Of a DNA stretch of 64,000 bases, positions 3,890-51,309 are shown in pieces. Within the stretch, counting starts at the first letter, position 1, and each line of letters starts with the position of its first letter. The DNA comes from a virus. The stretch covers positions 148,543 through 212,542 of IMG/VR virus record IMGVR_UViG_3300028275_000006; one strand, written 5' to 3'. Below the pieces are notes generated by a model. That model was given only the letters and a program-made list of their open reading frames with translations. It ran no database searches and was not told the origin of the DNA. Position numbers and translations under genes: made by a program.

Positions 3890-5941
3890 TTATTTTTCAT
3901 GTGCTATGAATTCACCATTCCAATTATCTGGAAGGTTCTGTTCTTTCATAAACTCGCAACGTTCAATCCAGATTTTGTAGTACTTGTCCATTTGTCCACC
4001 AAAGTTGCCTTTTAGTTTTTTACACATAGCGGCTGCTTCGTCGAACTTCTTTTGTTTATACAAGGCATGCATCAACTCGTGCTGTACTTTATCTTTACTG
4101 TAATCTTCACCTTTGGTTCTTAATGCTGTATAGATTAAGTCTGCTACAGTTTTGCCTTTAGGTTGTAAGTTATCTAGCATTAGATAGAAGAAGTCATCTT
4201 TAGTACGGTTGTAAGTTTCAGCACCGATGATACATAACACGCCATAGGCCTTACAACGTGCTTCTAAACGAGCGGCGGTTGAAACCATGTCACCTAAGAT
4301 GTCGTAACTATGTCTGTCAGTTGATCCCATCTCACCAATAAAGCCAATACCTGAGTTACAACCCCAACCCATTGCGGCTGGTGGTAAGCCTTGTGCTTCC
4401 ATTAGTTTAGTATACTCATCAACAGCATCTAACATCTGTAAACCAACAGCAACAATAGTACGGGCATGATTAGGATCTTCAATCGGAGCACCGTGTATGT
4501 GCATACTTGCGTCACCTACATACTTTATGACCATACCCTTGTTGTCCATGATAGGCTGACTAATAGCATCCATGTAACCGTTCATATACTTGCCTAATCC
4601 AGCAACATCATCACCGTAGTGTTCTCCAATGGGTGTAAAGCCACGCAAGTCACTGAACATAACGGATACGTCTTTACGCACACCACGCTTGATTAGGTCT
4701 GGATCTTTTTGTAGCATTTCTACTACTTCCTTACTACAGTATCCAGCGAACTGTTTCTTAATTGCCTGTTTCTGTAAAAACTCGCTTATAAACTTAACGC
4801 CATAACAATGAAGAGCAACGATAATAAGGCCAAACGCGATCGCAGTCGCGTCTCCCAAGACGAGCCAATTATTGAAAGCGTAGATAGTACCAGGAACGAT
4901 GGCACCAACAATAACCACAGTAGCACCAATGCCAACATAAGTCCACCTCGATAAGAAAATTAATAATATGCCAAGTGATACTAATGCTAAAATTTCAACC
5001 CCGTCGGCATAGTCGGGACGTTGAATAACAATGCCGTTAACCATTGTACCAATTACTGCGGCCTGCACTTCGTGAGGAAATACAGCACCTTTGCTTGTCG
5101 GTAACGGATTACTAATACCAGCGGCAGTAGGACCTACAATAACGACGGCGCCACCTAAATCTTTTGGAAGTTTAACAGCACTAACGCTATGAGCTTCTTG
5201 GCTCCAATCGATCCAAATTCTTCCTAAACTATCTGTAGCAATAGGACCAAACTTTGGAATACGCATTTTCTCAACGCCGCCTTCAAAAAGTTTTACTTGG
5301 AAGGTAGAGTCTCCTGCGGCGACTCTAAGTGTCTCTAAACTCAATGCTGGATATAATTTGCCGTCTACAGTAACAATTAACGGCATGCGGCGATTAACAC
5401 CATCTACTTCTGGAAGTGTTCCTGTAATGCCAACACCTGCGGCATTTTGTTCTAGTTGAGGAACGTTGGCGATTAGTCCCGGGTATTGAATAATTTGATC
5501 TAGATGTTCTGGACCTAGTACAGCCGATCCTGGAACACGTGGTGTATTCTTTGTTTTCTGTGCTGGCGCACTTCCTAGTACTACAGGGAACTCTTTTAGA
5601 GTTTGTCCTAGCGCACCATCTCCACCAGTACGATCTGTCTCTGGCATAAGAACATTAAGTACAACAAGTCCTGCATTTCTTTGGTATAGTTCCTTCACAA
5701 GTTTAGCATATTCTGCTCTTGGTAAGGGCCACTGACCATATTTGTCTAACGTGGCTTCGTCGATATTTACAGTAACTATGTTGTTAACTGTAACTTCTTT
5801 ACTTGTAATTAATGTGTCAAAATAACGTAGTCTTACGCTTTCAACAAATGTAGGATCTGCAACTCTGACACCAACAACTAGTGCTAGAGTTAGTAAAGCA
5901 GTCCATGGACTTACTAGTATTTTTTTGAATTGTATTTTCAT
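3890..5941 (-). CDS. CHASE2-domain class III adenylate/guanylate cyclase
   Basis: A 683-residue membrane receptor cyclase. Residues 1-30 hold one membrane helix; about 35-305 form an extracytoplasmic CHASE2 sensor; about 315-380 contain three membrane helices; about 424-600 form the catalytic domain. Metal-binding Asp431 (MFSDLRGFT) and Asp477 (KYVGDASM) are present, as are Lys473 and Asp547 (YDILG), the pair typical of ATP specificity, and Arg558. The usual Asn of the VNxAAR motif is Ser554 (VSTAAR), which could lower activity. It would make cAMP in response to a periplasmic signal. Its stop is 37 bases upstream of the PBP gene start. Confidence 0.88.
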   Translation of the reverse strand: MKIQFKKILVSPWTALLTLALVVGVRVADPTFVESVRLRYFDTLITSKEVTVNNIVTVNIDEATLDKYGQWPLPRAEYAKLVKELYQRNAGLVVLNVLMPETDRTGGDGALGQTLKEFPVVLGSAPAQKTKNTPRVPGSAVLGPEHLDQIIQYPGLIANVPQLEQNAAGVGITGTLPEVDGVNRRMPLIVTVDGKLYPALSLETLRVAAGDSTFQVKLFEGGVEKMRIPKFGPIATDSLGRIWIDWSQEAHSVSAVKLPKDLGGAVVIVGPTAAGISNPLPTSKGAVFPHEVQAAVIGTMVNGIVIQRPDYADGVEILALVSLGILLIFLSRWTYVGIGATVVIVGAIVPGTIYAFNNWLVLGDATAIAFGLIIVALHCYGVKFISEFLQKQAIKKQFAGYCSKEVVEMLQKDPDLIKRGVRKDVSVMFSDLRGFTPIGEHYGDDVAGLGKYMNGYMDAISQPIMDNKGMVIKYVGDASMHIHGAPIEDPNHARTIVAVGLQMLDAVDEYTKLMEAQGLPPAAMGWGCNSGIGFIGEMGSTDRHSYDILGDMVSTAARLEARCKAYGVLCIIGAETYNRTKDDFFYLMLDNLQPKGKTVADLIYTALRTKGEDYSKDKVQHELMHALYKQKKFDEAAAMCKKLKGNFGGQMDKYYKIWIERCEFMKEQNLPDNWNGEFIAHEK

Positions 5942-6474
5942 TTTTTAAATCCTGGCTTTGGTAAGTGGTTGCGGCCGTAACTAATTCTACTGCCTATAAT
6001 TTGTTCTAATGCTGTATGTAAGGCTTGTCCTGATAAATGTTTACGCAACCATTTTTCTGCTAAGTTGTTAATAATCTTTTCATTAGCGTGTGCAAAGCCG
6101 CCTTTACTTTTAGCGTGTACATAAGCGTGATATGCTTCGTGGGCCGCAACAGCAACGTCTCGTGCCGCGGTGCTGTCTAGATTTGGTAAGTTGATACTGC
6201 CAACGCCGTCGCCTGTATCCCTAAACATTGGATCTCCGCTACTCTGGTAGACATAATACATTCCAGGACCTAATTCGTCATCATCGTCAGTTACTCTATC
6301 TCTACCTAGAATATTTCTAACTACATCATATGCTGTCCAAAGCGTGGCTGCAGGTTCTCTGCTTAATTTTGTAGTTGGAAGCATTATTTTATCTTCAGGA
6401 TCGAAGTCACCATATCTTGCTTTTAAATCGGCGTCACTTGCTTCTGCTTCTTTTATAAATTCTTTTGCTCTCAT
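5938..6474 (-). CDS. Capsid-targeted HExxH metallopeptidase-like protein
   Basis: The start at 6474 is chosen because it yields MRAKEFIKEAEA, the same N-terminus as other genes in this window; longer frames read through the lipoprotein gene. It resembles the T4 capsid-targeting sequence and has an IKE site after which a prohead protease could cut. The mature part (about 170 residues) has AAHEAYHAYVHA, a zinc-type HExxH motif. It probably travels in the head and enters the host with the DNA, where it could cut host proteins; peptidase activity is inferred from the motif only. Its start overlaps the upstream stop (ATGA), and its end overlaps the cyclase start. Confidence 0.75.
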   Translation of the reverse strand: MRAKEFIKEAEASDADLKARYGDFDPEDKIMLPTTKLSREPAATLWTAYDVVRNILGRDRVTDDDDELGPGMYYVYQSSGDPMFRDTGDGVGSINLPNLDSTAARDVAVAAHEAYHAYVHAKSKGGFAHANEKIINNLAEKWLRKHLSGQALHTALEQIIGSRISYGRNHLPKPGFKK

Positions 6475-6614
6475 GATCTTGGTGCCGCGCCGTTTCGAGT
6501 AGCAGGATCCCATGAGTGGCAACCCTTGGGTCGTCCGTCTTTGTCGCAAAATGCTATTCCGGCGCAGCCTGCTAAGGTTGTAATAATTGCTAATATTAAG
6601 ATGTTTTTCAGCAT
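6471..6614 (-). CDS. Small lipoprotein (47 aa)
   Basis: A 47-codon frame starts at ATG 6614 and ends overlapping the metallopeptidase start (ATGA). The N-terminus MLKNILILAIITTLAGC is a lipoprotein signal with lipobox LAGC (Cys17); the mature part is only 31 residues with two more Cys. A late-promoter-like ACTAAATA ends five bases before the start. Its size and lipobox resemble small phage outer-membrane lipoproteins such as Rz1-type spanins, but no matching inner-membrane partner is adjacent, so that role is only possible. Confidence 0.7.
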   Translation of the reverse strand: MLKNILILAIITTLAGCAGIAFCDKDGRPKGCHSWDPATRNGAAPRS

Positions 6615-6632
6615 CCAATATTTAGTTAGATT

Positions 6633-9026
6633 TTATTGGCGAACAACTGTGCTACAACCCGCTGGATTTGTACAACTTTGAATGATGCTAAATGATTTGC
6701 CGCCTGTTTGTTGCAGGTCAACACTGGCTGGGCCACCTGCGTTAGTTACATCAATAACTGCTCTGTTAGCAGTATTTCCTGTTTGTGTCACTAGTGCTGA
6801 GTTGTTATTTCCTGTTAGTGTAATATCAGCGAAATGGCCAGCACCGCCAGACTGTGTAGTGTTTACAGTATTAATATCGCCTGTAACTTTACTGAACAAT
6901 ATGTGATTACCGGTTTGTGTATGATTTACAGTATTACCATTTCCTTGTATTTTAGTTTCAGCATAATTTGAACCACTAGCATTTGACTGATTAGTAGTTA
7001 TGTTATTGCCCCACCCAGGCACTTCTTGCTTTAAGTAGTTACTGCCAGTTTGAGTATTATTAACAATATTGTTGTTTCCTTCTAAGGTAAATTCGATTTT
7101 GTTCTTAGTACCACTTTGTGTAATAGTTACATTATTGTTAGTACCGTATGTTTGTGTGATGTACAATTCGTTATTGTAGTTTTGTGTACCGTTGTTCCAA
7201 GTATTAATTCTAGTTTGTTTAACATCTATATCTGCTGGAGGAACGTATGAGCCACCGCTACCTATAACTTGATCACCAGGCGCATTTGTTTGTGTAATTG
7301 TTCCACCTTCAACTACTGGTCCTAATAAAACTGTTGTACCCGACACGTCAACTACTGCGCTGTTAGAATAAACAAATCCACTAGTGTCAATTGTATTTGT
7401 TTCAGTAATCCACCCTGTAGTAAATGCAGAGTTAGGTACGTTCATACGGCCTGCACCGTAGTCCCATTGAAAACGTAGTCCATAGCCGCCGGTGTCGTTC
7501 CAGTACCATGCTTCAAAATTATAAGTCTGTCCTGCTACTATGTCTATCCAGCCAGACGCTGTATAGCCACCTATACTCTGAAGTTGGAATGTAGATCTAT
7601 CGTTGATAACTGTTTGTCCGTTTACACTCATAACAAATCCGTCATCGCTGTTGCTATAGAAGTATAATCTATATACAGTACCTGCAGGATAATTTTGTGT
7701 CGTCGGAGCAGTAATCGTTCCGTTGAATCTAACTAAGGTACCAGTGTCCATATTTGGAAAACTGCCGTTAGTCGGAACATAAACTCCGTTACTAGTTGTA
7801 CCAATACTAACAGGCTGTCCACCAGGTGGCATATCAGGTACACGATATGGCCCTAACCAGTTTTTAATACAACCTAACCAACCGCAGTTATAAGTGTAAG
7901 GATCGAATTTGTAGACTTTATAGTTTAATCCCTGCTGTATGTTTTGTGTTGTAGTTGTTGCTGTGCCGTTTGCTTCTATGGTGCTGCCATTAACGCCGGT
8001 TGTAGTAACTGTATTAATTGGTGTTGTAGTTGTTGTCAGAACACCGTTTACAATTTTTGTAGTTACTACGTTAGACGCAACCTTAGTTTGATATACTGCT
8101 TCAGTACCATTTGTACTTGTGCTAGTTCCGTCGCTGTAAGTTGTTGTAGTTACAGGTGTGCGATAAACAGTAGTTGTATTACCATTAACCACAGTTCTAG
8201 TTGTATAAGTTACACTAGTTCCTGTTACTGTAGGAGTCGGAGCAGGAGCCGCACCGGCAGTTGCGCCCGTGCCAGCATTGGTCACTGACATTGTGTTATT
8301 ATATCCACCAGCAGTACCACTAGTAGTACCACCAGTAGCACTAGGGCCGCCACCGTTAGCGTTAGCAACTAAGCCAACTGTACTCGAACCAGGCACTCCA
8401 TCGCTGTTAACGATACAGGCATTTGATCCGCCCCATGCACCTTGACAAGCACCGAACCCTGGATTTGATACCCAACCTTGTGCTGTTATATTATTATAAG
8501 GCCCAAACTCCGGGTTATACAATAAGTTGCCGCCGCCATTAAGTTGGAATGTAGGAGCACGATACCAAGGACCATAATCACCTGCCCAGTAACTTCCATC
8601 AATACCGTACATACTGACTGTGGCATAGGCTACTTGGCTTGCTTGTGCCGCAGTAAGCGTTGCACTGATAGTTACTGTAGTCCAAGGTACCGCAGTATCA
8701 ATACAAGGATTACCACACACAGCATTTGGGTTTGGTAAGTTAGCAGAGTTAGTTGAGTTTACGCTAGTGATTAATCCACCACTGCTGTTATAGAACTGTA
8801 TCTTTACGTTAGCCGTATCACTTTGTCCTGCACGGCCGCCGCCGTTGTGTGCTAGTACACTCATTGTAAATGTACCGCCTTGTTGCATATTACTATCAAA
8901 CACTACTTGTTGACTAATTGTAGTAGTAACATAAGCAGTAGCAATAGCATTATAAGTCACAGCCTGACTATGTGCGCTAATGCACACAGTTAAAAACACA
9001 AGGAACTGTAATAAACGTTTTATCAT
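6633..9026 (-). CDS. Secreted PA14-domain adhesin with C-terminal curlin-like repeats
   Basis: This 797-residue protein has a Sec signal peptide (about 1-22, ending ISAHSQA), a beta-rich N-terminal domain, a Thr-rich linker, a PA14 domain (about 375-545, with YSNSDDGFVMSVNGQ and FEAWYWNDTGG) and about seven imperfect 20-25-residue repeats near the C-terminus with the curlin pattern N-N-x-x-x-x-x-Q-x-G. PA14 domains bind carbohydrates or are adhesion modules; curlin repeats stack into amyloid. It overlaps the FecR-domain gene start by four bases and closes the curli-like operon. Likely an amyloid-anchored surface adhesin exported through the CsgG-like channel. Confidence 0.8.
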   Translation of the reverse strand: MIKRLLQFLVFLTVCISAHSQAVTYNAIATAYVTTTISQQVVFDSNMQQGGTFTMSVLAHNGGGRAGQSDTANVKIQFYNSSGGLITSVNSTNSANLPNPNAVCGNPCIDTAVPWTTVTISATLTAAQASQVAYATVSMYGIDGSYWAGDYGPWYRAPTFQLNGGGNLLYNPEFGPYNNITAQGWVSNPGFGACQGAWGGSNACIVNSDGVPGSSTVGLVANANGGGPSATGGTTSGTAGGYNNTMSVTNAGTGATAGAAPAPTPTVTGTSVTYTTRTVVNGNTTTVYRTPVTTTTYSDGTSTSTNGTEAVYQTKVASNVVTTKIVNGVLTTTTTPINTVTTTGVNGSTIEANGTATTTTQNIQQGLNYKVYKFDPYTYNCGWLGCIKNWLGPYRVPDMPPGGQPVSIGTTSNGVYVPTNGSFPNMDTGTLVRFNGTITAPTTQNYPAGTVYRLYFYSNSDDGFVMSVNGQTVINDRSTFQLQSIGGYTASGWIDIVAGQTYNFEAWYWNDTGGYGLRFQWDYGAGRMNVPNSAFTTGWITETNTIDTSGFVYSNSAVVDVSGTTVLLGPVVEGGTITQTNAPGDQVIGSGGSYVPPADIDVKQTRINTWNNGTQNYNNELYITQTYGTNNNVTITQSGTKNKIEFTLEGNNNIVNNTQTGSNYLKQEVPGWGNNITTNQSNASGSNYAETKIQGNGNTVNHTQTGNHILFSKVTGDINTVNTTQSGGAGHFADITLTGNNNSALVTQTGNTANRAVIDVTNAGGPASVDLQQTGGKSFSIIQSCTNPAGCSTVVRQ

Positions 9027-10129
9027 TTTTGTATCAAGGTAATAATAGTATTACCTCCCTGATTTATTCTGTTCTTAAATTCTAAATTGCCCTGTGTTTG
9101 TAATATTGTTGAGTTTTGTGTGAGTGGTGTTTTAACACATTGTATGTCAGCACCGTTGTCGCGACAGAGTTCAACACTCATATCATCTTTGTAGGCTATA
9201 ATGCCACTGGACTTTTTATAGTCTGGTAGCACAGGATCTACAGGATCTAAAAACTTTTGATCCAGTATGTTTCCCACAATGTCGAATAAGTTAGCAAGGA
9301 AATCATTAGACAAAAAGTTTTTGGCTAACTTATCTTCATAAATCATATTGGCCTGCATATCTAAATAATTCTCCAAACCTTTCTCTTTTAAAAAGTCAAA
9401 GTCTAAAGCATTAAATGTTCTCTGTTGTTCTTGTTGTGCTTGTTTGACTTCGCGCGGAGGACTGACAATTAACATATTGCCAATGGCCATTTCACTTAGA
9501 TTTAATACTTTAGGCGGTGTAGGAGGTTGTGTTCTACTTTGAACTTTAGTTACTTGGAAGGGTTGATTTAGTATTACAGTACCTACATCATTGCTAACTT
9601 CAATACTGCCAGTCTTACAGTTAGTTTCAATATCTCTAACTGAGCGTGTTGGTCTATCATTAGGACAACTAGGTAAAAGAATAATTGTACTTTCGCCTAG
9701 CTCGTCTACAGTGGCAGTAAAGTCAGTACCGCGTACAGCAACAGTAGCACTAGGAGTAGAAAGGGCCACATTCTGAGGCGAATTCTTAGCAATCTGTCCA
9801 GACGCATAACGAACTGTGCCAAGAGCAATCTTAGCACCTAGTTTACCCGCCTTACTTTTTGGATCATAAACGAAATCATCAATTACAAGTTTAGAATTTT
9901 CATTGACTTGGACTTTAGTATCGTCCTCAAATGTTATCCCCACCTTGCCCTGCTGGGTCTTGATCGCATCGTTCATTTCCACTCCAGTCCCTTTCGACGC
10001 CGTTAGTGTCGAATTCTGTCTCTGGATAGTCGGGGGTGTATTGATTTGTTCCGTTACTTTGCCTATCGCGGCGTAGGCCAACGATGTACTCAGCAACGGA
10101 ACGCATAATACTACCATCCATAATTTCAT
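9023..10129 (-). CDS. Secreted FecR-domain protein
   Basis: The 368-residue product has a signal peptide (MKLWMVVLCVPLL...AYA) and a FecR-type beta domain over about residues 35-155: GITFEDDTKVQVNENSKL, a VRYASG strand and the hallmark TPSATVAVRGTDF. Such secreted FecR proteins are usually surface or periplasmic beta-solenoid-like modules rather than FecR sensors. The C-terminal half is helical then beta. It sits between two curlin-repeat genes, so a role in capping, anchoring or nucleating fibres is likely. Its role is inferred from context. Confidence 0.8.
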   Translation of the reverse strand: MKLWMVVLCVPLLSTSLAYAAIGKVTEQINTPPTIQRQNSTLTASKGTGVEMNDAIKTQQGKVGITFEDDTKVQVNENSKLVIDDFVYDPKSKAGKLGAKIALGTVRYASGQIAKNSPQNVALSTPSATVAVRGTDFTATVDELGESTIILLPSCPNDRPTRSVRDIETNCKTGSIEVSNDVGTVILNQPFQVTKVQSRTQPPTPPKVLNLSEMAIGNMLIVSPPREVKQAQQEQQRTFNALDFDFLKEKGLENYLDMQANMIYEDKLAKNFLSNDFLANLFDIVGNILDQKFLDPVDPVLPDYKKSSGIIAYKDDMSVELCRDNGADIQCVKTPLTQNSTILQTQGNLEFKNRINQGGNTIITLIQK

Positions 10130-10138
10130 GGAACCCTC

Positions 10139-11113
10139 TTAGTTTTTCTGTAAAATAGTGTAAGTGTTGCCACTTCCTGATATAGCAAGATTAGTTAGAT
10201 TGCTAACTGATCCTTGTTGTGTAATACCAATAGTATTAGTACTACCTGTTACAGATAACGTTGTGCTGTGTCCAGTAGCAGATCCACCTGTTTGTGCAAG
10301 TGTAATGCCATTGCTACCGCCTGTTACAGTAATACTAGCATAGTGATCGTACGCACCAGTTTGTGTTACGTCTGTAGTATTACCAGAACCTGTGATGTTG
10401 ATAATTGCTTGAGCACCAGTTACACCGTATGCACTCTGTGTTACAGATGTAGTGTTAGTTGCACCAACAGTTGTTAGACTAACTTGACCTTTGTTTCCGG
10501 TCATGTTAAGTGTAGTTGCGTTGCCGCCGCCACCTGTTTGACTAACAGTTGCTACAGTTTCATCAGCGTTGATTGTACCTGTAAATGTGTTGTTAGCACC
10601 ACCACTAGTTCCAACAGTTAATTGGTTACTTGTACCAGTCATGTTAAGTGTTGTAGTTGCACTACCGCCACTTTGAACAAAACTAACAACGTTACCACTG
10701 GCTGTGCCTGTACCATTATTGTTAATATTAATGTAACCTGTGTTTCCACCACCACTTACTTGGTAATTTAAATTCACACCAATATTAGCATAACCTTGTA
10801 CAGTACCACCTTGTGTTGAGTTAACACCTAACGCCAATACGTTAGTTGCTCCTGTTTGCTCAATGTTGATAGTCTGTGCGGCACCAGTTAGTTTAGCAGG
10901 ATCAGTTGTTCCACCTGCTGTGCCATTTAATAATATACCCTTTACTTTGTTTCCTGCTCCGTCTTGAGTCATAGTAATAGTACTATTATCGCCGGACTGA
11001 TCAATGTAAATGCTATTGTCAGCCGCATAACCCAATGTTGTCATTGCAGACAACACCAGAATTGTGAGTAATTTTCTCGACAACCCACCAGCGCCTGTGA
11101 TTCTCTTATGCAT
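10139..11113 (-). CDS. Curlin-repeat protein (CsgA/CsgB-like amyloid subunit)
   Basis: A 324-residue secreted protein. After an N-terminal signal region (residues about 10-30, ending LGYAADN) it is almost entirely Gly/Asn/Thr/Ser/Gln-rich repeats with strands of the type S-x-x-x-I-x-Q-x-G-x-x-N, e.g. YIDQSGDNSTITMTQDG and VTQTGAYDHYASIT. This is the hallmark of curlin subunits, whose repeats form stacked beta-strand/turn units. E. coli CsgA is about 150 residues with five repeats; this is about twice as long. It would be the major fibre subunit exported by the CsgG-like pore. Confidence 0.82.
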   Translation of the reverse strand: MHKRITGAGGLSRKLLTILVLSAMTTLGYAADNSIYIDQSGDNSTITMTQDGAGNKVKGILLNGTAGGTTDPAKLTGAAQTINIEQTGATNVLALGVNSTQGGTVQGYANIGVNLNYQVSGGGNTGYININNNGTGTASGNVVSFVQSGGSATTTLNMTGTSNQLTVGTSGGANNTFTGTINADETVATVSQTGGGGNATTLNMTGNKGQVSLTTVGATNTTSVTQSAYGVTGAQAIINITGSGNTTDVTQTGAYDHYASITVTGGSNGITLAQTGGSATGHSTTLSVTGSTNTIGITQQGSVSNLTNLAISGSGNTYTILQKN

Positions 11114-11196
11114 CGTTTTTACAGAATTAGGTTATCTTCCCTAACTCGCTCCTTGGTCTAAGACCATTAAAAAATTTAAAGTGCTACCTCTCTTTC

Positions 11197-12366
11197 TTAT
11201 TTTTGTTTGTTAACTACTTCTTTTTTAACAAACCCTTTACGCTTCTCTACGTCCTGCACTTGTACCCAATCACCTTCGCTCCCGGTTATGAATACTCGTG
11301 TATTTGGCTTAAACTGCCAAGTCCTTTGACTCTTTTCGTTTGGCTCCTTGTATATAAACTGAGCATCCTTTAGAATTGCTTCTGTAGGTAACTTCTCTAG
11401 TTCTTTTGCGGCGGTACTGGGTACGGCCTTGGTTTCGGTTTCGGATTTGGTTTGTGATTGAACCACGACATCTTTCTTCTCCTCTACTTTAACTTCTTCT
11501 TTAATCTCAGAGCTAATTACCGGCTGGGCCGCTGGTGCTGGTACAGGTGCCTTGGCCGCTGGTGCGGATTCTGGTTTAAACTCCCATACACCTTTACGTT
11601 GTCCTTCCTTAATTAACTCTACGACTGCCATTTCAATAGTTGCCTTTGTAGCGTAAGTGCCAGGTTCATTGATAGTTAAACCTGCTTCTGCTTCAAATGC
11701 CTTAGTGCCTGCGTCAAAGAATTTTAATGCAGATACGCTGTCTGCTGAACTTAAGATAGTCTTTTGTACTGTCACTGTGGCTAATACCTTACCAGTGTTT
11801 ACGCTAACTGCTCGTAAACTTACTGTTACTGTATCAGTGCTCCACTGTGTATTTTTGCCTATGCCAAATATACGTTGACCTACACCACCGCTGGTAGTGC
11901 TTTGATCGTAGCCTACTATTCCGCCTTCTACAATAATTCCAGCGAATTGCATTGGTAGCAATGGTTTAGCATCTTTACCTTCATATGCTTCGCGCATTTG
12001 CCTAATAATTAAACGTTCTTTAGTTAGGTTATCAATGCCCACACGTTCTACAACGTCGAACCATTGACCGCGTCCTACATTTTGTAATGCCTGTATTAAG
12101 AATGTTTCTGCACCCTGTGTCACTGCTGTTGATAAACTGGCAATGTTTGCCTGCGGTCTACGTTGACCTGTTTTATCAGTAAAACTATAAACGGCCACGC
12201 TTAGTGGTCTTCCAGCGATTGGACTAGGTATTGTATCAAATTCTTTCTTAACATTAGTCATTTGCCCTGTAACTTCAGGACTCTTGTCTAGTACTCCAGT
12301 TGTCTGCATAACAGCACAACCTGAAAGCATAGTTAAAACTGCTAGGGATAGTATTGTCTTTTTCAT
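11197..12366 (-). CDS. csgG: CsgG-like curli secretion channel with C-terminal SH3-like domain
   Basis: A 389-residue outer-membrane lipoprotein. Its lipobox is LSGC (Cys16). Residues about 50-265 match CsgG: RPLSVAVYSFTDKTGQRR, AVTQGAETFLIQAL, WFDVVERVGIDNLTKERLIIRQ, and the strands TVTVSLRAVSVNTGKVL. E. coli CsgG is about 277 residues; the extra C-terminus here is a Pro/Ala/Lys-rich linker followed by an SH3-like domain (about 335-385, RVFITGSEGDWVQVQDV), which may bind peptidoglycan. CsgG forms a nonameric pore that exports curli subunits. It lies three bases after the CsgF-like gene. Confidence 0.92.
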   Translation of the reverse strand: MKKTILSLAVLTMLSGCAVMQTTGVLDKSPEVTGQMTNVKKEFDTIPSPIAGRPLSVAVYSFTDKTGQRRPQANIASLSTAVTQGAETFLIQALQNVGRGQWFDVVERVGIDNLTKERLIIRQMREAYEGKDAKPLLPMQFAGIIVEGGIVGYDQSTTSGGVGQRIFGIGKNTQWSTDTVTVSLRAVSVNTGKVLATVTVQKTILSSADSVSALKFFDAGTKAFEAEAGLTINEPGTYATKATIEMAVVELIKEGQRKGVWEFKPESAPAAKAPVPAPAAQPVISSEIKEEVKVEEKKDVVVQSQTKSETETKAVPSTAAKELEKLPTEAILKDAQFIYKEPNEKSQRTWQFKPNTRVFITGSEGDWVQVQDVEKRKGFVKKEVVNKQK

Positions 12367-13735: not shown

Positions 13736-13811
13736 TGGTGCCCCTTGTCCGACTCGAACAGACCACCTACTGATTACAAATCAGTTGCTCTACCAGATGA
13801 GCTAAAGGGGC
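13736..13811 (-). tRNA. tRNA-Thr (anticodon TGT)
   Basis: The minus strand folds as a full cloverleaf of 76 bases: acceptor GCCCCTT/AAGGGGC, D-arm GCTC/GAGC, anticodon stem ACTGA/TCAGT with loop TTTGTAA (anticodon TGT, reading ACA-type Thr codons), and T-arm GTCTG/CGGAC around TTCGAGT. CCA is encoded. A consensus promoter lies upstream. It probably supports Thr-rich fibre and curlin-repeat genes that use ACA often. Confidence 0.95.
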
Positions 13812-13861: not shown

Positions 13862-15415
13862 TTAACGGATTGCGAAACCCATTTTACCAACTGGTCTTCT
13901 TGTAGCGTAGAAGTTACTGCTGGCATCCAATTTAATTGTGCCCGTGAATACTGGAGGATAGATAACTTCAAAATTGGAGAAGTATGCTCCATTTGATGGT
14001 TTACCTTCAGCGTCCTTAGTAGGCTTCTGTTGTAATGAAGTTTTGACTTGTAACATATTGGAACGTTCCAGAACTGCTTTGAAGAAAGCATCTGTCTTGT
14101 AGTCCTTGTTTACTTTATTTGCTGTGCCAGTTGCTACTGCGGCTAATAAATGCCAACCAATTCTGTAGTCTGGTCTTGTCGAATCGTCTGTGCCTTTATA
14201 AACTAACAATCCTTTTAAGTCGCCTAGTGTTTCGTCATCAACATGCGGCTGATCGCTGTCAATGATTTCCATAATTTTTTCTGCTTGTGTACCATCGATG
14301 ATGCCTACTTTGACACCTAATTCTAATGCACCAGCAATAGAACCATTTCGTTTCCATTGTGCGCTTTTAGCCACATAACTCATGTCAGGGTCTTTAATAA
14401 TGTTTACAATGTCTAGTAGCTCTTGGAAGCCTGGGTTGACTTTAGGATCAAACAATCCTTCATAACGTTGCGGGTATGCCGCTATATCGTCTACCACACC
14501 AGATACAGATGCCTTTGCGCCGCCTTGCTTGTCTTTGGAACTTACACGAATCTTCACATCACCTGAAAACTTCAAATAACTATCGTATAGTTTTTCAGCA
14601 GGATCGTTTGGAAATTCTACACCAACGGCTTCTTCAAACTTCAAACCCATTCCGGCTTCGGCCTGTTGCCATGCACCACTTAAGAACTTTTTCTTAATTA
14701 ATGAAATTGGTGCGGCTGTTTCACCTAAATCAATTTCGTAACTCTTAGCATAGTCGCCGGCGCCGGGGACAGGATTACTGCTACCAGAAGCAACAGCCTG
14801 CAATAGTTGTACTACCTGTTGTTTAATAGCATCTGCTAGATCATCACGCTCTTGAATAGAACCTTGCACTTGTGTAGGAATATCATCTACAGCAATGGTT
14901 GTATTAGTAGGAATAATTCCAACAGGTTTTAAATTAGTTAGAGCACGTTGTTGTACTCCAGAAATTTTATCTTCCTCTCCTGCTTTGCCGCTTAGTTGTA
15001 CATAACCAGTTAGGTCTGAAAACTGTTTAGTCTGTAAGAAGATTGGATAAGCACCTGGCTTCTTAGCAGGCTTAAGAGCGATCCATGCTATGTTCTTTTT
15101 AGATTTTTCATCTTTAAAAATCATTACTAATGCGGCACCTGCTTTTTCAGGTATGCTTAGTCCGCCCACTGGCGGAAGTGTTAGTGCGTTAGATACTGCT
15201 ACATTGTTAGCCTTCACATAGTCCATAATCTCTGGAACTAGTTCTTGATAATTGTCTCGCTTGTCTACGTCTTGTGGAAACACTTGAGATGCAATCATAT
15301 GAATAACATTTCCATCTGCATTTTTAAATGCTACACGTTTGCCACGGCCGGCTTCTTCTGCACGGCGGGCCATGCCGCCTTCAGATTCAAATAAAATAAA
15401 TTCTTTTGCTCTCAT
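13862..15415 (-). CDS. Capsid-targeted internal protein (517 aa), function unknown
   Basis: It starts MRAKEFILFESEGG: the shared N-terminal peptide followed by LFE, a possible prohead-protease site. The rest is a soluble, mixed alpha/beta protein with no family I can name. A segment GDVKIRVSSKDKQGG has the look of a PD-(D/E)xK-type nuclease strand (D...S/E-x-K), but this is weak. A protein of this size delivered with the DNA would be a candidate host-takeover factor. Its start overlaps the stop of the next upstream MRAKEF gene by four bases, so the two are co-translated. Confidence 0.75.
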   Translation of the reverse strand: MRAKEFILFESEGGMARRAEEAGRGKRVAFKNADGNVIHMIASQVFPQDVDKRDNYQELVPEIMDYVKANNVAVSNALTLPPVGGLSIPEKAGAALVMIFKDEKSKKNIAWIALKPAKKPGAYPIFLQTKQFSDLTGYVQLSGKAGEEDKISGVQQRALTNLKPVGIIPTNTTIAVDDIPTQVQGSIQERDDLADAIKQQVVQLLQAVASGSSNPVPGAGDYAKSYEIDLGETAAPISLIKKKFLSGAWQQAEAGMGLKFEEAVGVEFPNDPAEKLYDSYLKFSGDVKIRVSSKDKQGGAKASVSGVVDDIAAYPQRYEGLFDPKVNPGFQELLDIVNIIKDPDMSYVAKSAQWKRNGSIAGALELGVKVGIIDGTQAEKIMEIIDSDQPHVDDETLGDLKGLLVYKGTDDSTRPDYRIGWHLLAAVATGTANKVNKDYKTDAFFKAVLERSNMLQVKTSLQQKPTKDAEGKPSNGAYFSNFEVIYPPVFTGTIKLDASSNFYATRRPVGKMGFAIR

Positions 15416-16320
15416 TCACAGTTCCAACGTTTACGTGCTTTGCAGATTGCCTTGTCTGGTGTCTTAGTGCAATCAATATTGTGCATTTTCTTTTGGCCAT
15501 CACTTCTAGCACAAAAACTTGATCTACGCTTACTTGCCTTAGATCCTTTCTTTAATTTGCTAGGAGGTGTAGTGACTGCTGTTTTTAATTTACTACCAGG
15601 ATGTTCTCTACGATATGCTTTAACGGCTTTACTGCTCATGCCATCGGTTTTGTCTTTCTTATTAACCTTCTGCCAATCTTCTGACATACCTTCTGGGCCA
15701 ATTTGAACTAACCATTCTAATTCATCGTCTGCATCTCTAACACTGAAGAATTTAACATTAGGAATCTTCTTAGCCGCAAACCATTTGTTAGCCACTTTAA
15801 CCATTAGGGCACGATGTTGACGATCATTAACATCCGGTTCATATCCGCCTGTTAAGTTTGCCCACAATGCACTTGGATTGCCATGGCGATCGTAACCCAA
15901 CAATTCACGCCATTGTTGTTGTAAGCGATCTGGCACATACTGATCCAATTCAGTGTCGCTCATCCACTCTCGGCCAATATCGACACCTTCCGCCATGGCG
16001 GCTTCAGTTAAGTCTTCTGGGGCAAAACCAATATAACTCTTACCATGCTCATCGCCAGACTGCACAACAAATGCGCCGCCTTCTTCTGATTCGATTTCGC
16101 CAATTTCCCAACCCATACGATTTAATAGTTTTTCAACTTTTTGTTGTATGTCGTCATCGCCATTGTACCAAATACGAGCGTACTTGAGTAATGTTTCTTC
16201 TTCGTCGCCACTATTATCCGGCGCAAATTCTTTTACATTTTGCTTTTTCTTTTTAGCAATAGCGATAGCGGCTTGTTGTGCGGCATTGGTTGCTTCTGTG
16301 ATGAATTCTTTTGCTCTCAT
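15412..16320 (-). CDS. Capsid-targeted internal protein with basic Cys-containing tail
   Basis: The 302-residue product starts MRAKEFITEATN with a clear ITE site after residue 9. Residues about 10-225 are acidic. The tail (about 230-302) is Lys/Arg-rich with the pattern MSSKAVKAYRREHPGSKL, then KRRSSFCARSDGQ and CKARKRWNCE. I know this basic Cys-containing tail from uncharacterised proteins of large DNA viruses and phages, where DNA binding is suspected. It may be packaged bound to phage DNA. It heads the transcript that also carries the 13862 gene. Confidence 0.72.
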   Translation of the reverse strand: MRAKEFITEATNAAQQAAIAIAKKKKQNVKEFAPDNSGDEEETLLKYARIWYNGDDDIQQKVEKLLNRMGWEIGEIESEEGGAFVVQSGDEHGKSYIGFAPEDLTEAAMAEGVDIGREWMSDTELDQYVPDRLQQQWRELLGYDRHGNPSALWANLTGGYEPDVNDRQHRALMVKVANKWFAAKKIPNVKFFSVRDADDELEWLVQIGPEGMSEDWQKVNKKDKTDGMSSKAVKAYRREHPGSKLKTAVTTPPSKLKKGSKASKRRSSFCARSDGQKKMHNIDCTKTPDKAICKARKRWNCE

Positions 16321-37378: not shown

Positions 37379-37571
37379 TTGGATATACGTAAGAAGAATG
37401 TTTACCTTGTACTTTAATTAACAGACTCTTACGTATAAGACTTTCGATTATGGATTGCTCTCTTTCATTAAATCCTGCTAAGATGCTGGGCTCAGTGATA
37501 GTTTCAAGAAGTTCTTGTTCCTCCTTGCTGGTCCATACATCTATTTTTCTTACAAATTCGTTAATTTTCAT
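37371..37571 (-). CDS. Small hypothetical protein (66 aa)
   Basis: The product starts MKINEFVRKIDVWTSKEEQELL and is predicted to be a small helical, winged-helix-like protein (NEREQSIIESLIRKSLLIKVQ). Its first residues are similar to the MRAKEF-type capsid-targeting peptides but lack an obvious (L/I)xE site nearby. It overlaps both neighbours by four to eight bases. Function unknown. Confidence 0.7.
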   Translation of the reverse strand: MKINEFVRKIDVWTSKEEQELLETITEPSILAGFNEREQSIIESLIRKSLLIKVQGKHSSYVYPNV

Positions 37572-37831
37572 TTTAATTCAGCCATCTGCTTTTTAAGGTC
37601 AGTTATCTGTTTTGTTAAATCAGCGATTTGATCAGTAATTTCTTTTTTCTTGTCTTGCACTTCTTTTTGATGCTGTGCTATCTGTAACTGCATTTGTTTT
37701 TGCTGTGCGGCAGGATCCTGAGCAACCATTTGATTATTAGGATCCAGTGTGGCTCCTTGCGCTGTGGCTCCTGGAGCGGGCGCGGCACCTGGTGCTGGGG
37801 GTACTGCTTCTAATAAGTCTGATATTTTCAT
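37568..37831 (-). CDS. Small coiled-coil protein with possible capsid-targeting start
   Basis: An 87-residue protein starting MKISDLLEAVPP; LLE followed by A fits the prohead-protease consensus. A Pro/Ala/Gly linker and a C-terminal coiled coil (DKKKEITDQIADLTKQITDLKK) follow. It resembles small core proteins that are processed during head maturation. It overlaps its neighbours by four bases. Confidence 0.68.
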   Translation of the reverse strand: MKISDLLEAVPPAPGAAPAPGATAQGATLDPNNQMVAQDPAAQQKQMQLQIAQHQKEVQDKKKEITDQIADLTKQITDLKKQMAELK

Positions 37832-41932: not shown

Positions 41933-41960
41933 AAAAAAGGACTCTTCGGAGTCCTTTTTT
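41933..41960. terminator. Bidirectional intrinsic terminator between convergent genes
   Basis: AAAAAAGGACTC-TTCG-GAGTCCTTTTTT is a near-perfect palindrome with T-runs on both strands, ending both the 41627 gene (+) and the 41959 gene (-). Confidence 0.95.
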
Positions 41961-43371
41961 ATACTTGAGCGGCAAATATTGTGCCGCCTATCTTTTCGCC
42001 GCCAGCGGCTATCATCTTATCTCTAAATCCAATGTTAGTGCCTGCACCGTAGGCCGCACTAGAAGCCGCTGTAAAGTATTTGAGATTTGTTGGAACTTGC
42101 GGAAGAATATTAATTGCGCCATCTACAATGTTAGCCAATTGTCTATCAGTTGGGCCACGTGTAAAGTTAGCACTTGGGCCCGGATCAAATCTTGTACCAG
42201 TAACTGCTTGGAACTGATTTGGAGCTCTTAACACACTGATAACATTGTCGCCCCAATTACCTGTGCGTGTTCTGTTTAGGATAACGCCCATAACATAGGC
42301 TTGTTCTTTACTGTTATTGCTTGCTTCAGCAGTTGTAGCACGTAACAAGTAATTCCATTCTTTGTCGTCCATTGGACGTCCTAGATACTTTTCTGCTGTT
42401 GCTCTTGCCTTTTGCGTACTCTCGGTGCTAGTTAAGGCTGCAACTTCTTCAGCACCTCTGCTATAGTCTAATGACTTAACATCCTTGTTAGTACTCTTTG
42501 TTAAAGTAGCCAATACTTCAGGCTTGGCTTTGAGCATGGCGTTCATTTTATCCGCAGTTTGCTGATTAACAATTCCTGTTGCTTCTAAGCCATTCTTCTC
42601 TTGGAAGGTTTTGATAGCACCTGTTGTTTCTTTACCTTGAATCCCATCAACACCATATTTAGGTAAAGGTACGCCCAATGCTTCTAATGCCTTTTGTGCA
42701 TCTGCAATTAATGGGCCACGTTTGCCGTCTGGAACTTCTACACTAAATGGAACTGCCGTAGCATCTTTTTCTTTATTGTCTGCTGTATCTTTACTAGCAG
42801 GTGCGGCAATAGAAGAACCTGCTTGAAATAGTTTACTGTATCCGTTAAACGGGTGTATGCCATCGCCCTTGGCTATGTTTGGATCAAAGGTGTTTAGTGA
42901 ACCTAAAAACTTTGCTCCTGCGCCTGCGGCAATGCCGGATAGTTTTTGATTTGCGCCTGTGTAATCTACAGTCCATTGTTTACCATTAGTAAACTTTGTA
43001 GGCTTTTGCAAAGGTGTTTTGCCATCAGCAACACCAACTAGTGCTACCGATGCTCCTGCATCTTTTAACGCTTTAATCTGTTGACTAATTGGACCAAAGT
43101 TTTCCGATTGAATCTGTGTTCCGTCTTCTGTTTCTACTTTACCACTGTTAGCGGCTCCACTACTTAAAATAACAATAGCACCTTTTGCTTTGCCACTTTT
43201 AACAAAGGGCGTTACAAGATTTTGTAGAACAAATGTAGTGTTTTTTCCAGGATTAGTGTATTCTTTGCTAACGCCACCGGCGCCAGCAATGCCATTGGCA
43301 ATACTGTCTCCAATTACGTAAACGTTGGATTTTGATTCAAAAAGTTTGGATAAGAATTCTTTGGCTCTCAT
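41959..43371 (-). CDS. Capsid-targeted SGNH hydrolase + peptidoglycan-binding + SleB hydrolase
   Basis: A 470-residue protein beginning MRAKEFLSKLFESKS (shared capsid-targeting peptide; LFE cleavage site). Then: an SGNH-type hydrolase domain (about 16-190) with YVIGDSIANG (GDS) and GDGIHPFNGYSK (D-x-x-H); a peptidoglycan-binding domain (about 215-275, YGVDGIQGKETTGAIKTFQ); and a C-terminal SleB-type wall-hydrolase domain (about 325-470, TAEASNNSKEQAYVMGVILNRT). The order suggests a protein that binds the cell wall, removes acyl groups and cuts glycan during DNA entry. A CATAAATA box ends six bases before the ATG. Confidence 0.82.
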   Translation of the reverse strand: MRAKEFLSKLFESKSNVYVIGDSIANGIAGAGGVSKEYTNPGKNTTFVLQNLVTPFVKSGKAKGAIVILSSGAANSGKVETEDGTQIQSENFGPISQQIKALKDAGASVALVGVADGKTPLQKPTKFTNGKQWTVDYTGANQKLSGIAAGAGAKFLGSLNTFDPNIAKGDGIHPFNGYSKLFQAGSSIAAPASKDTADNKEKDATAVPFSVEVPDGKRGPLIADAQKALEALGVPLPKYGVDGIQGKETTGAIKTFQEKNGLEATGIVNQQTADKMNAMLKAKPEVLATLTKSTNKDVKSLDYSRGAEEVAALTSTESTQKARATAEKYLGRPMDDKEWNYLLRATTAEASNNSKEQAYVMGVILNRTRTGNWGDNVISVLRAPNQFQAVTGTRFDPGPSANFTRGPTDRQLANIVDGAINILPQVPTNLKYFTAASSAAYGAGTNIGFRDKMIAAGGEKIGGTIFAAQV

Positions 43372-44667: not shown

Positions 44668-47600
44668 TTATCGAGCGATCTCTGTAATACGAAGTGTTAG
44701 TGCTGTTGATGAATTTGTAACGGTTATGCTATCGTCCGCTGAGTCTCTACGAACACCAACGGTAATAGTCTTTGCTGTGGTACTTGAATTTGTATATCTA
44801 CCCGTTAGCGGAAATAAATTACCTGTTCTACCGCTTTCATTACTTCTTGTCATTTGACGAGCGTAGACTATTTCAGAACCATCTACTTTGATACGAGAAA
44901 AATAACTGTCTGTACCAGCACCACCACTATCTGATGCCGCTCTATAGTCTGCCACGTGAACGTGTATGATCAAGTAACTTGAATTGCTGGTCGGTGTATA
45001 ACTGTAGGTAAGAAGATCTGTGTCGCTGGTGCTAGTAGCCACTGTAGTATTATTAACAGTAAACTCGCTGTTGTTCAACATAGTATCTTTGATGACTTGT
45101 CCAGCTCTCCAAGCACCTGCTTGTATAAATCCAGTAGTGGCCAAGTTACCTGTAGTATCTACAGCCATCTTTACTGCGCCGCCACTTTCATTTAGGTTGT
45201 TAGTCACACGGAACAGTTGTCCGCTTAGGACAGTGAATGACCCGTTGTAACTATCAACAGCCCAGTTATTATTGTTGGCATAATACATCAACACACCCGG
45301 AGTGTCTGTAGTGCCGTTGTCTAGGGCAATATCACCAGTGCCCAGTGTTTTGGTGTATGTACCAGTGCCCGCTTTAACAGCACTGGCAATGTTTGTAGTG
45401 CCACTGCTGTTGCCAATGTTTAGAGTAGTTGCGGCACCTGCAAAGTTAACGGTAGTTGCTGTTGTGTTAAAGATATTAGCACTAGTGTTTCCGGTTAATA
45501 AATTCTGTGCTGTAACATCGCCGGTACTGGTAGAGAACCCGCCGGCATAGATAGTGCCAACTGAGTTGATACCGCCACCAAGATATATGTTACCAGCAAC
45601 ACCTACACCACCAGATACTTTCAATGCTCCAGTTGTTGTGTTTGCGCTGTTAGTAGTATCTGTAATGCTAACTGCACCACTAGATGTTAAACCAGTTAAT
45701 GTTCCTACACTAGTCAAACTACTGTTTACCACAGTAGATTTTAATGTTACGCCAGTTAGAGTATCTGCGGCTGCTGTAACGGTAATGTTTGCGCTACCAT
45801 TAAAACTTACACCGTTAATATTACGAGCAGTTTGTAGAGTAGTTGCTGTAGTAGCATTACCAGTATAGGCTGTTGTTTGTACAGTACTATCTGGGAATGT
45901 TATCTGTCCAGCCTTGTCAAATACCCAAGTCTTGATAGACCTTACACTTGCTGTTCCTGATGACACATAAAGAGTAACACCTGAAGTATCAGTTGTTACA
46001 TAACTGTCAAAAGGAAGTCCTGCTCCAATAGTAGTGGCTTTCCAATACAAATTAGAACTAGATGTATCACCACTGCTCTTTACGCCAATACTGTTAGTGC
46101 CGCTGTCAAGAGTATTACTAGGCAGAGTTGTGGTTCCATCGTTGTTAAACTTCCATTCATAGTATGGTGCTGGGCCGCCTGTTTGGATTGTTAAACCAGT
46201 TGCTTGTCTAAATGTATTTGTGTTAGATAAGATTAAACTGCCGGCGCCATCAAAGCCTAACGAACTAGTAAAGCCACTGGCTTTGATACTGTTGACTTCA
46301 ATAGTAGCACTAGAGCCTAGACTAATACTTGTACCGTTAACTGTGACTGCGCTGTTGGCTAGTTTGCTGTTGGCTATTGATCCAGCCAACATAGTATTAG
46401 TTACTGTACCTGTGTCACCAGTTGTTATCACTGTACCAGTTGTTGCTGGCATTGTGATAGTAGTTGTACCAGCAGCCGCACTTGCTTTCAATACAGTAGT
46501 GCCACTTGTTGATCCGTTGAATGTAGCACCAGTACCACCTATGGTTGGTAATGTCAGCGTTTTGTTAGTCAGTGTCTCACTGCCCGCCAGTGTAGCAAAA
46601 TCTCCATCAGTCAGTGCTGAGTTAAACTGAGCAGTGGTTCCGCTGACTGTATTAGAACCTAGAGCAATAGTTTTGTTGGTTAGTGTTTGGCTACCAGTTA
46701 GGGTTGCTACTGTTGAATCAATAGCGATAGTAACTGCTGAACTACCGTTATAAGTTGTGCCGCTTAATCCTGTGCCAATAGTTAAGGCATTTAAGTTACT
46801 GCCCAGACTTACACCAGATATAGTGCTGTTGGCTAGTTTAGCATTGGCGATTGATCCTGCTAACATTGTATTTGTAACAGTACCAGTATCACCTGTAGTA
46901 ACTACTGTGCCTGTAGTTGCTGGTAAAGTAATAGTTGTAGTACCTGCGGCTGCTGATGCTTTTACTACTGTAGTACCACTTGAGCTGCCGTTGAACGTAG
47001 CGCCAGTACCACCTATCGTTGGTAGTGTTAATGTCTTGTTGGTTAATGTTTCAGCACCAGTTAGAGTAGCATAGCCACTGTCGTTAGTCAGTTGGCTAAC
47101 GTTAGTTGGAACTGTAGGAGCACCAGTTAACTTACTGTAGGCAAGACTTGTTATCCAGGCAGGGTTAGCATACGATCCTGTTGAGTATAATCCGTTGGTA
47201 ACTGTTGCCGCATTACCATCAATGCTTACACCAGTTAGTGTTTGGCTAGCACTTAGTCTTGTAAAGTCTAAACTGGTTGTGCCAATATAAGCACTAGAGT
47301 AGATAGTTGGCTTGTTTGTTAAGTCTGTGTAACTGCCACTAAACAATGTAGGTGTACCAGTTAGTTTGCTGTAGGCTAGGCTTGTTATCCACGCAGGGTT
47401 ACTGTATGTTCCTGTAGTGTAGACTCCATCAGTTACTGTACCGGCATTGCCATCAATGCTTACACCTGTTAAAGTTTGGCTAGCACTTGTTCTGTTTAGT
47501 GCTATGCTGGTTGTACCAATGTAGTGCGTGTCTGCTCGTAGGGCTACGGTTGAGTCTACAGCGATAGTAACTGCGGTACTACCATCAAAACTTGTACCAC

Positions 47601-50600: not shown

Positions 50601-51063
50601 ATGTTAGGTATCCGCTGTCGTTAGTAAATGAGCTAACATTTGTAGGCTTGCCAGTTAAGTCGGCGTAAGCACCACTGAATAGTGAAGGCTTGCCTGTGAC
50701 TGCGTCCCAACTTACACCTGTGATAAATCCTGTGTCGTTTGTAAGTTGGCTAACATTTGTTGGAACTGTAGGGGCACCTGATATACTAGAGTAGGGAACT
50801 GTGCCTACACTGATAACGCTGTTATCGATAGCAATAGTTGTGCCATCAATCTTAATACCACCTTTAACTGTGGTAGTTGCTGTAGGTAGCACATAACTAC
50901 TGCCGCCCGCTCCGCCTACGGCTAAACCGCCCGGAGTTTCACCGTCAGAGATGCGTATTGTATTGGTTATTCCATCGTACCAAAGACGGTCTTTTTCACC
51001 TATACGGGTGTCGCCGTCTTCGTAGTTTCTTCGTTGGGTTCGGAAATCTTGTGTAAATGACAT
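44668..51063 (-). CDS. Giant repetitive tail fibre (2131 aa)
   Basis: The N-terminus (about 1-55, QRRNYEDGDTRIGEKDRLWYDG) is a virion-attachment module. The rest is built of repeated beta-strand units such as SWDAVTGKPSLFSGAYADLTGKP, GDTGTVTNTMLAGSIAN, LTGxETLTNKT and GxSIDGNAxTVTNGxYxTG, occurring many times from about residue 80 to 1900. The C-terminal 150 residues are less repetitive and likely form the receptor-binding tip. Thr, Ser, Asn and Gly dominate. It is a long, flexible fibre; near-identical DNA repeats make recombination or assembly error likely. Confidence 0.88.
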   Translation of the reverse strand: MSFTQDFRTQRRNYEDGDTRIGEKDRLWYDGITNTIRISDGETPGGLAVGGAGGSSYVLPTATTTVKGGIKIDGTTIAIDNSVISVGTVPYSSISGAPTVPTNVSQLTNDTGFITGVSWDAVTGKPSLFSGAYADLTGKPTNVSSFTNDSGYLTSSSLSSYATQSYVTSRGYITSASIPTAVSQLSNDSNFLVQSNFDLNTINLDANGKLHTTGILPGDADGFTAVFAGRAAGVAALPNTVIQSQAQVNDYAQNNFQNTSDGAHSSTEWVATSPNGSDTDYYIDMGINGASWDGTAENSLYDNVGQRDGWLYVQGGNAGGGNLVLGTSIANTYTKIVAGNVATGDREVIRFSSTEVKLSKQLTFNDNTTQTTAWLGTYSWNDLTDAPTIPLDTGDLTNNAGFITSAALSGYATLTGEETLTNKTFTSPTINNPTFNGTFAFESNNTNQPAMTLTASVLQDGVGILRVIGSEPDINFNQVSASPGFNTFTFEWNGDPKLAMGRRNDHSFYITRNDGAWHDNAFVLDYATGVLSVESGISVPSINFADETTQTTAWTGSVDWANVTNQPTLTTSLSALTDVNVTGAITGQVLTYDSVTHSWIPGGSGGGATGALGYYGSFYDVTAQQSNAGATSANLVLIGGTYEANGITIQNGSKITFSYAGTYSIVFSLQFVNDNAAEQDVSVWLKTTVNGVTSNVDDSTVVYTIDADTGSLGKLVAINPFILTVEAGEQIQIYWQSPSTDVYLKTIAAQTSPSVPRAPAVILTVEQTSSIVVPDSIAGNAATVTNGVYTTGSYANPSWITSLAGSKVTNAVLTTDTGTVTNTMLAGSIANNKLANSTITVNGTSISLGSSGTVNTANALTIGRGLTGTASTFNGSAAVTVSLDTSTTTVVATAGATTTLDAATITRYYNVTGSISGTHIFKLPDLTTLTAGQQITFFTSAATITYQLSTGTQIVSNTIATARQTTFTVVSTASNATANLSYTQLVSGLVGTGTSLVTNSSPSISTAYITNLDSTTSTNAYASTPSLTLGPSSSVFNHTLNILTAATGATYVKNLNIGTNLAGGTSTINIGTGVTSGTATLNLGSATTTTTMNGAVTITSLTATNSIVGSITGNAATATKLGTARTINNVSFDGSAGITVTASTTNALTIGSGLSGTSFDGSTAVTIAVDSTVALRADTHYIGTTSIALNRTSASQTLTGVSIDGNAGTVTDGVYTTGTYSNPAWITSLAYSKLTGTPTLFSGSYTDLTNKPTIYSSAYIGTTSLDFTRLSASQTLTGVSIDGNAATVTNGLYSTGSYANPAWITSLAYSKLTGAPTVPTNVSQLTNDSGYATLTGAETLTNKTLTLPTIGGTGATFNGSSSGTTVVKASAAAGTTTITLPATTGTVVTTGDTGTVTNTMLAGSIANAKLANSTISGVSLGSNLNALTIGTGLSGTTYNGSSAVTIAIDSTVATLTGSQTLTNKTIALGSNTVSGTTAQFNSALTDGDFATLAGSETLTNKTLTLPTIGGTGATFNGSTSGTTVLKASAAAGTTTITMPATTGTVITTGDTGTVTNTMLAGSIANSKLANSAVTVNGTSISLGSSATIEVNSIKASGFTSSLGFDGAGSLILSNTNTFRQATGLTIQTGGPAPYYEWKFNNDGTTTLPSNTLDSGTNSIGVKSSGDTSSSNLYWKATTIGAGLPFDSYVTTDTSGVTLYVSSGTASVRSIKTWVFDKAGQITFPDSTVQTTAYTGNATTATTLQTARNINGVSFNGSANITVTAAADTLTGVTLKSTVVNSSLTSVGTLTGLTSSGAVSITDTTNSANTTTGALKVSGGVGVAGNIYLGGGINSVGTIYAGGFSTSTGDVTAQNLLTGNTSANIFNTTATTVNFAGAATTLNIGNSSGTTNIASAVKAGTGTYTKTLGTGDIALDNGTTDTPGVLMYYANNNNWAVDSYNGSFTVLSGQLFRVTNNLNESGGAVKMAVDTTGNLATTGFIQAGAWRAGQVIKDTMLNNSEFTVNNTTVATSTSDTDLLTYSYTPTSNSSYLIIHVHVADYRAASDSGGAGTDSYFSRIKVDGSEIVYARQMTRSNESGRTGNLFPLTGRYTNSSTTAKTITVGVRRDSADDSITVTNSSTALTLRITEIAR
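46330..48640 (-). repeat. Imperfect DNA repeats inside the tail-fibre gene
   Basis: At least three copies of a unit coding GDTGTVTNTMLAGSIAN and its flanks occur near 46.33-46.60, 46.80-47.06 and 48.50-48.63 kb, with a pair of units (TSLAYSKLTG...) near 47.1-47.4 kb. They are close in DNA sequence, suggesting duplication and gene conversion. Confidence 0.6.
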
Positions 51064-51102
51064 TAAACTATCTCACGTTTAATGTATTTACCGTAAAACG
51101 TA

Positions 51103-51309
51103 TCAGTGTTCGCTACGTGTAAGTTTTTGAATAACAGGACTGTCTTTGCCCTGTTCTGCTTTGTCCAGCTCTAAATGCTGTTGTAATGGCGGAACCATTA
51201 CAGGATCTGGGTCTTTTTCTTCGGCATCGTGGCTTTGTTTATCACTAGAGTTATCGTCTAGTGCATCAATTATATCTGCTAGTGATCTTAGGAATTCTGC
51301 GGCTCTCAT
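51103..51309 (-). CDS. Small acidic protein with MRAAEFL start
   Basis: The ATG at 51309 yields MRAAEFLRSLADIIDALDD, a variant of the shared capsid-targeting start, while an upstream start at 51327 lies inside the next gene. No (L/I)xE site directly follows, so cleavage is unsure. The 68 residues are acidic, with a charged tail. An ACTAAATA box ends six bases before the ATG. It is probably a small internal head protein; function unknown. Confidence 0.65.
   Translation of the reverse strand: MRAAEFLRSLADIIDALDDNSSDKQSHDAEEKDPDPVMVPPLQQHLELDKAEQGKDSPVIQKLTRSEH

Follow-up and report, generated by a model that had tools for sequence, protein, structure and literature searches.

A short N-terminal peptide on unrelated proteins of an aquatic phage is a probable T4-type capsid-targeting signal

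Why should proteins as different as a peptidase and a wall hydrolase, encoded by the same phage, begin with the same few residues? The question is raised by a window of 64,000 nucleotides (the whole stretch analysed, positions 148,543 to 212,542 of the linear 212.5-kb IMG/VR record IMGVR_UViG_3300028275_000006, here G000). Five starts singled out by the first-pass annotation as carriers of one signal are all present on the minus strand. Four of them, at 6474, 15415, 16320 and 43371, read MRAKEF(I/L), a set well beyond what chance would give, and the one at 51309 reads MRAAEFL. The same annotation had it that a T4-like (L/I)xE cleavage motif follows, and this holds for IKE-A (6474), ITE-A (16320) and LFE-S (15415 and 43371), but not for 51309, which has no such site. 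In all four MRAKEF(I/L) genes the motif is reached at most 12 residues from the start, the cleavage-motif Glu being E10 in the 517-aa protein and E12 in the 470-aa protein. The fifth gene matches in part only, and has been dropped as a tag because it lacks an (L/I)xE site and no relative turned up among the loci compared. The MRAKEF(I/L)xE peptide is, with a probability of roughly 0.85 as judged from sequence, a capsid-targeting propeptide (CTS) of the T4 type, with the consensus M[RK]xx[ED][FI][IL]xE, which would be cut after the E by a gp21-type protease.

No further MRAKEF start occurs in G000. An overlapping record, G026, belongs to the same phage (99.998% identity, G026 112,574-270,181 corresponding to G000 1-157,605), and holds one additional MRAKEF start, MRAKEFIDE-S, on a 118-aa protein; two more tag-like starts lie in its non-overlapping part. 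A possible further tag is found in the window on an 87-aa Pro/Ala-rich protein, whose homologue in a sister phage starts MKITDLLSE-Q. A profile trained on tags taken from homologues found by their bodies, with the single 9-mer MRAKEFITE added, was run on five phage records, and scored at least 8 at 22 of 1,894 candidate starts and at not one of 4,677 internal methionines, several of the profile counts being based on longest-ORF gene calls, not on curated ones. The features are collected in Table 1.

Table 1. Tagged genes, predicted propeptides and head genes of the phage (window positions unless G026 is named; a hyphen within a peptide marks the predicted cut)
Feature	Position	Strand	Basis or status
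Predicted 9-aa propeptide MRAKEFIKE-A of HExxH peptidase	6448..6474	-	Sequence and homologues
178-aa zincin-like peptidase (HEAYH), cargo	5938..6474	-	ORF; homologues share ATG
Predicted 10-aa propeptide MRAKEFILFE-S of 517-aa protein	15386..15415	-	Kept in homologues
517-aa protein, function unassigned, cargo	13862..15415	-	ORF
Predicted 9-aa propeptide MRAKEFITE-A of DUF6321 protein	16294..16320	-	Sequence and body homologues
302-aa protein, C-terminal DUF6321 (PF19846), cargo	15412..16320	-	Pfam E=2e-10
Possible further tag MKISDLLE-A, 87-aa Pro/Ala-rich protein	37568..37831	-	Regex match at start
Predicted 12-aa propeptide MRAKEFLSKLFE-S of hydrolase	43336..43371	-	Site kept in homologues
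470-aa protein, cargo: PG_binding_1, Hydrolase_2	41959..43371	-	Pfam; SGNH-like start by eye
Acidic 68-aa protein, MRAAEFL start	51103..51309	-	Not accepted as tag
gp23, predicted site KYLSE-SAS	G026 98731-99906
Scaffold, 21 (L/I)xE sites	G026 99918-101009
gp21-type (Peptidase_S77) prohead protease	G026 101025-101657

The four cargo genes differ in how far their bodies can be named. The mechanical ORF of the peptidase (5938-6618) opens at TTG; ATG 6474 has been taken as the start because homologues begin there. M1, E9 and A10 are invariant in 10 aligned peptidase homologues, while the other tag residues vary. The 178-aa peptidase has no Pfam match, and the fold search was weak, the matches near the top being mostly zincins, none of them significant, with a poor structure model (pLDDT 62). 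The HExxH domain is also found inside longer proteins (loci L479, L488, L489 and L490), several of which keep an I/V-K-E-A junction where the tag would end. The 517-aa protein has no match in Pfam or PHROG, an unreliable structure model (pLDDT 37), and relatives only in close phages; all of these start MRAKEFIL(F/I)ES, and have bodies 75-90% identical. A single tRNA-Thr gene (window 13736-13811) adjoins this gene. DUF6321 homologues, found by their bodies, start MRAIEFLTE, MRASEFVTE, MKINEIIVE, MRITEILTE, MKSNEFLSE and others, and in some of them the tag is joined directly to the domain. One homologue, S-CREM2 gp137, is present in a published virion proteome (PMC10665884); some in cultured cyanophages lack the tag, though one of these is in virions. 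The 470-aa hydrolase matches PHROG endolysins, and its homologues keep the cut site, as MRAREFITQIFE-S (66% identity segment) and MRFYEIKKLIE-T (41%).

The first-pass annotation had proposed a search of related phages for such starts. IMG/VR was scanned with a tag DNA pattern fixed only to residue 7, so that Glu9 was not part of it; 125 of the 127 matches read are gene starts, and 114 of these 125 have Glu9, with residue 8 variable, as expected for the x of (L/I)xE. A version of the scan with CGN arginine gave Glu9 in 65 of 72 starts, while across the whole collection the scrambled MARKEF, used as a control, matched 25 times, yielding three distinct starts and never a Glu9. Bacterial and archaeal genomes totalling 257 Gb gave seven matches. 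Two of these are starts of tagged genes, and both belong to a single metagenome-assembled genome, in contigs carrying homologues of tagged phages' genes. The tag hence looks phage-specific. The string MRAKEF occurs in none of the papers searched.

The claim that one signal stands on unrelated bodies is borne out by the four window proteins and, on a larger scale, by the collected phage loci, in which 344 distinct ORFs matching M[RK]xx[ED][FI][ILVFM]xE, with Glu9 thus required, fall by single linkage into 55 body clusters. Pfam families recognised among cluster representatives and window proteins are ADP-ribosyltransferase, NUDIX, Fe/Mn superoxide dismutase, sigma-70 region 4, GNAT, amidoligase, transglycosylase, wall hydrolase and kinase. 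The same body may also carry different tags: a ligase-like protein starts MRLRELFVES in the window phage, and MRAKEFLFEE or MRAFEFLTEA in other phages.

Virion protein lists are available for the cultured cyanophages S-CREM2 (PMC10665884) and S-SZBM1 (PMC9146016). A first preset tag regex gave no enrichment in the S-CREM2 list (P=0.55). With a grammar following T4 positions, chosen post hoc, five of the six matching S-CREM2 ORFs are in virions (P=2.4e-4 among non-structural ORFs), including a SAM hydrolase, a kinase and a cytidylyltransferase; the same grammar, pre-specified, gave no enrichment on S-SZBM1, where 0/3 and 1/4 matches were detected in virions. The single S-SZBM1 match detected in virions is again a cytidylyltransferase (MRFRQFIIE-A), and the enzyme detected by mass spectrometry in S-CREM2 virions starts MKNFSSFLTE-A. 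Four more cyanophage cytidylyltransferases, picked blind to their starts, all carry F(I/L)xE-A, ending at residue 9 or 10; that of S-ShM2 is a member of T4-GC190, which has been reported from virions of S-SM1 (PMC3037559). The homologue in the window phage starts MRLRNLFE-N. The S-CREM2 authors remark that virion-detected enzymes such as these might be co-purified contaminants.

These data bear on the best-surviving alternative, in which a CTS does package the proteins, their role being structural or in assembly inside the head, and not that of ejected effectors. Since the targeting step is common to both, its probability overlaps with that of the preferred explanation. Many cargoes are indeed short, about 130 aa, with no known function; enzymatic cargo such as ADP-ribosyltransferase, NUDIX and superoxide dismutase, and the non-structural enzymes in the virions of relatives, make a purely structural role rather unlikely, if still to be taken seriously.

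A processing site at the end of the tag is suggested by the residues that follow it. In 322 non-redundant tagged proteins Pro never occurs after Glu9, versus about 18 cases expected from the mean Pro content of 5.7% at residues 12-26 (P about 6e-9), and Ala or Ser occupies this position in 28%. The bias at residue 10 is only mild, yet the lack of Pro with frequent Ala/Ser would be a pattern as at a scissile bond. The major capsid protein offers a term of comparison. In the sister phage, gp23 has a candidate site, KYLSE-SATAGATSAG, directly before the region aligning to mature T4 gp23*, and a junction like the predicted LSE-S is found in small tagged proteins as MKIKEILE-SATAGATSAG and, in a close version, MRAKEFISE-TASAGATSSG.

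Searches of G000 for Peptidase_S77 and Gp23 gave no match, because the contig is truncated and not because the genes have been lost. The prohead protease gene, which the first-pass annotation had recommended locating, is found in the overlapping G026, outside the window's own record, together with those of the scaffold and gp23. G000 and G026 together span about 325 kb, and the phage is therefore a jumbo phage with T4-like head genes. The scaffold of the sister phage is enriched in (L/I)xE sites (20, versus 8.6 in shuffles), and its protease matches 5jbl, a structure of the T4 prohead protease, at E=4e-14. A detectable S77 protease occurs in 15 of 27 records with MRAKEF tags versus 0 of 3 control records.

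It might be held that the peptide is an uncleaved recognition tag for some other step of assembly or localisation, at the tail or baseplate, a membrane or a cellular compartment, and some tagged bodies, namely cell-wall hydrolases, could also act in the tail. The conserved Glu, the exclusion of Pro directly after it and the agreement with the predicted gp23 junction speak against this, and the cargo families named above suit internal proteins better than tail parts; such a tag is quite improbable. More improbable still is an effect at the nucleotide level, that is, a 5' coding sequence favoured for translation start or expression. The first codons are rich in A, with AAA almost invariant; yet conservation does not extend to the tag DNA itself, in which the codons for Ala, Glu, Phe and Arg vary (AGA and CGN are both common for Arg, and other third positions vary), and upstream sequences differ. 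Selection therefore acts on the protein, as also indicated by variants such as MKINEIIVE, which keep the protein grammar and not the DNA, and by the rarity of scrambled MARKEF. That the tagged genes arose by duplication of a single gene whose bodies then diverged, the common start being a functionless fossil, is hardly credible. In its favour, several tagged genes lie side by side at some loci (L018, L066, L129); against it stand the 55 body clusters, many of which have recognised Pfam families of their own, the same body with different tags, and a peptidase-family tag that varies while M1, E9 and A10 stay fixed.

The peptide has thus been read as a CTS because Glu9 is kept, the bodies are unrelated, the protease is present and the gp23 junction is alike. 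The first-pass reading of an address tag with a T4-type site emerges strongly supported by Glu9, the 55 body families, the exclusion of Pro and tag swapping, and further by the finding that the phage also encodes gp23 and a gp21-type protease, with agreement at the predicted gp23 cut site. During prohead assembly the tag would bind the scaffold core and carry the attached protein inside; the gp21-type protease would cut after the Glu of (L/I)xE, and the trimmed cargo would be left free in the head, from which it could enter the host with the DNA. The sequences support a conserved tag with its cleavage grammar, modular use, and a phage that itself encodes the cognate protease, the scaffold and gp23. 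From these we infer packaging and cleavage in the window phage and, more weakly and from the cargo types only, ejection and effector roles.

On a wider scale, it is rather likely that a plug-in nine-residue code for address and cleavage operates across aquatic T4-like phages, jumbo phages included, loading dozens of unrelated enzymes into the head, so that the proteins inside the heads of uncultivated phages, which are probably injected as well, could be read from sequence; the cargo would comprise ADP-ribosyltransferase, superoxide dismutase, sigma-factor-like, NUDIX, acetyltransferase, peptidase and wall hydrolase proteins, and some small cargoes would copy the predicted mature gp23 N-terminus. 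Since virions have been studied for few phages, little is known of the proteins that enter with the DNA. As proteins with similar tags number in the hundreds in other aquatic phages, internal cargo may be guessed from sequence alone; with a readable packaging tag, likely internal proteins could be listed directly from metagenomic contigs, candidates for early counter-defence and host takeover could be named, and new tags would be at hand for bringing proteins into phage heads.

Some neighbouring features may be recorded. A tag-like cluster outside the window (G000 60776-66437) encodes cytidylyltransferase, ligase-like, HAD plus HExxH and nucleotidyltransferase-like proteins, and has relatives in the methylophage Melnitz and in cyanophages. 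The end of its 219-aa protein (G000 60776-61435) has a stretch related to the predicted mature gp23 N-terminus, which is found copied directly behind a tag, as E-SATAGATSAGN, in small proteins of L435, L363, L197, L052, L494 and L500 (gp23 in L429). At window 3890-12366, an adenylate/guanylate cyclase gene matched as close to that of Melnitz adjoins, as in that phage, a cluster of curlin-repeat, FecR-like and CsgG-like genes (names by eye). Melnitz structural proteins found no tblastn match in the window's record.

Among known systems, the closest is the CTS of T4 IPII and IPIII. Both ipII and ipIII start MKTYQEFIAE-A, in agreement with EFIxE, and in T4 the first ten residues are enough for targeting, gp21 cutting after L/I-x-E (PMC9026906). 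Shared are a short N-terminal peptide with an EFIxE core, the cut motif, unrelated mature parts and a gp21-type protease. In contrast to T4's ten residues, the tag described here has nine, with an MRAKEF consensus, and sits on 55 body families in uncultivated aquatic phages. Phe7, a targeting residue in T4, is matched if the peptides are aligned on EFIxE, whereas Tyr4 has no clear counterpart. T4 Alt is a packaged ADP-ribosyltransferase, and a domain of this class is found among the tagged cargoes. In the giant phages phiKZ and SPN3US, a distant relative of gp21 cleaves head proteins behind Glu (PMC9026906), whereas the protease here is a clear Peptidase_S77 member and the motif (L/I)xE. Of the virion-associated enzymes of cyanophages (S-CREM2), the cytidylyltransferase is homologous, and tag-like starts occur on this enzyme, the SAM hydrolase and the APH/ChoK kinase; the available part of that publication gives them as a list without a common signal, and the tag there is usually of ten residues, MKxFxxFLxE. 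The mechanism is already known from T4, and what is new is its breadth and cargo; the tag is most probably a shorter, widely deployed version of the T4 CTS. A 2022 review of T4 suggested that the CTS may be a general packaging route for varied proteins in T4-like phages (PMC9026906), and the present data are broad comparative evidence for it.
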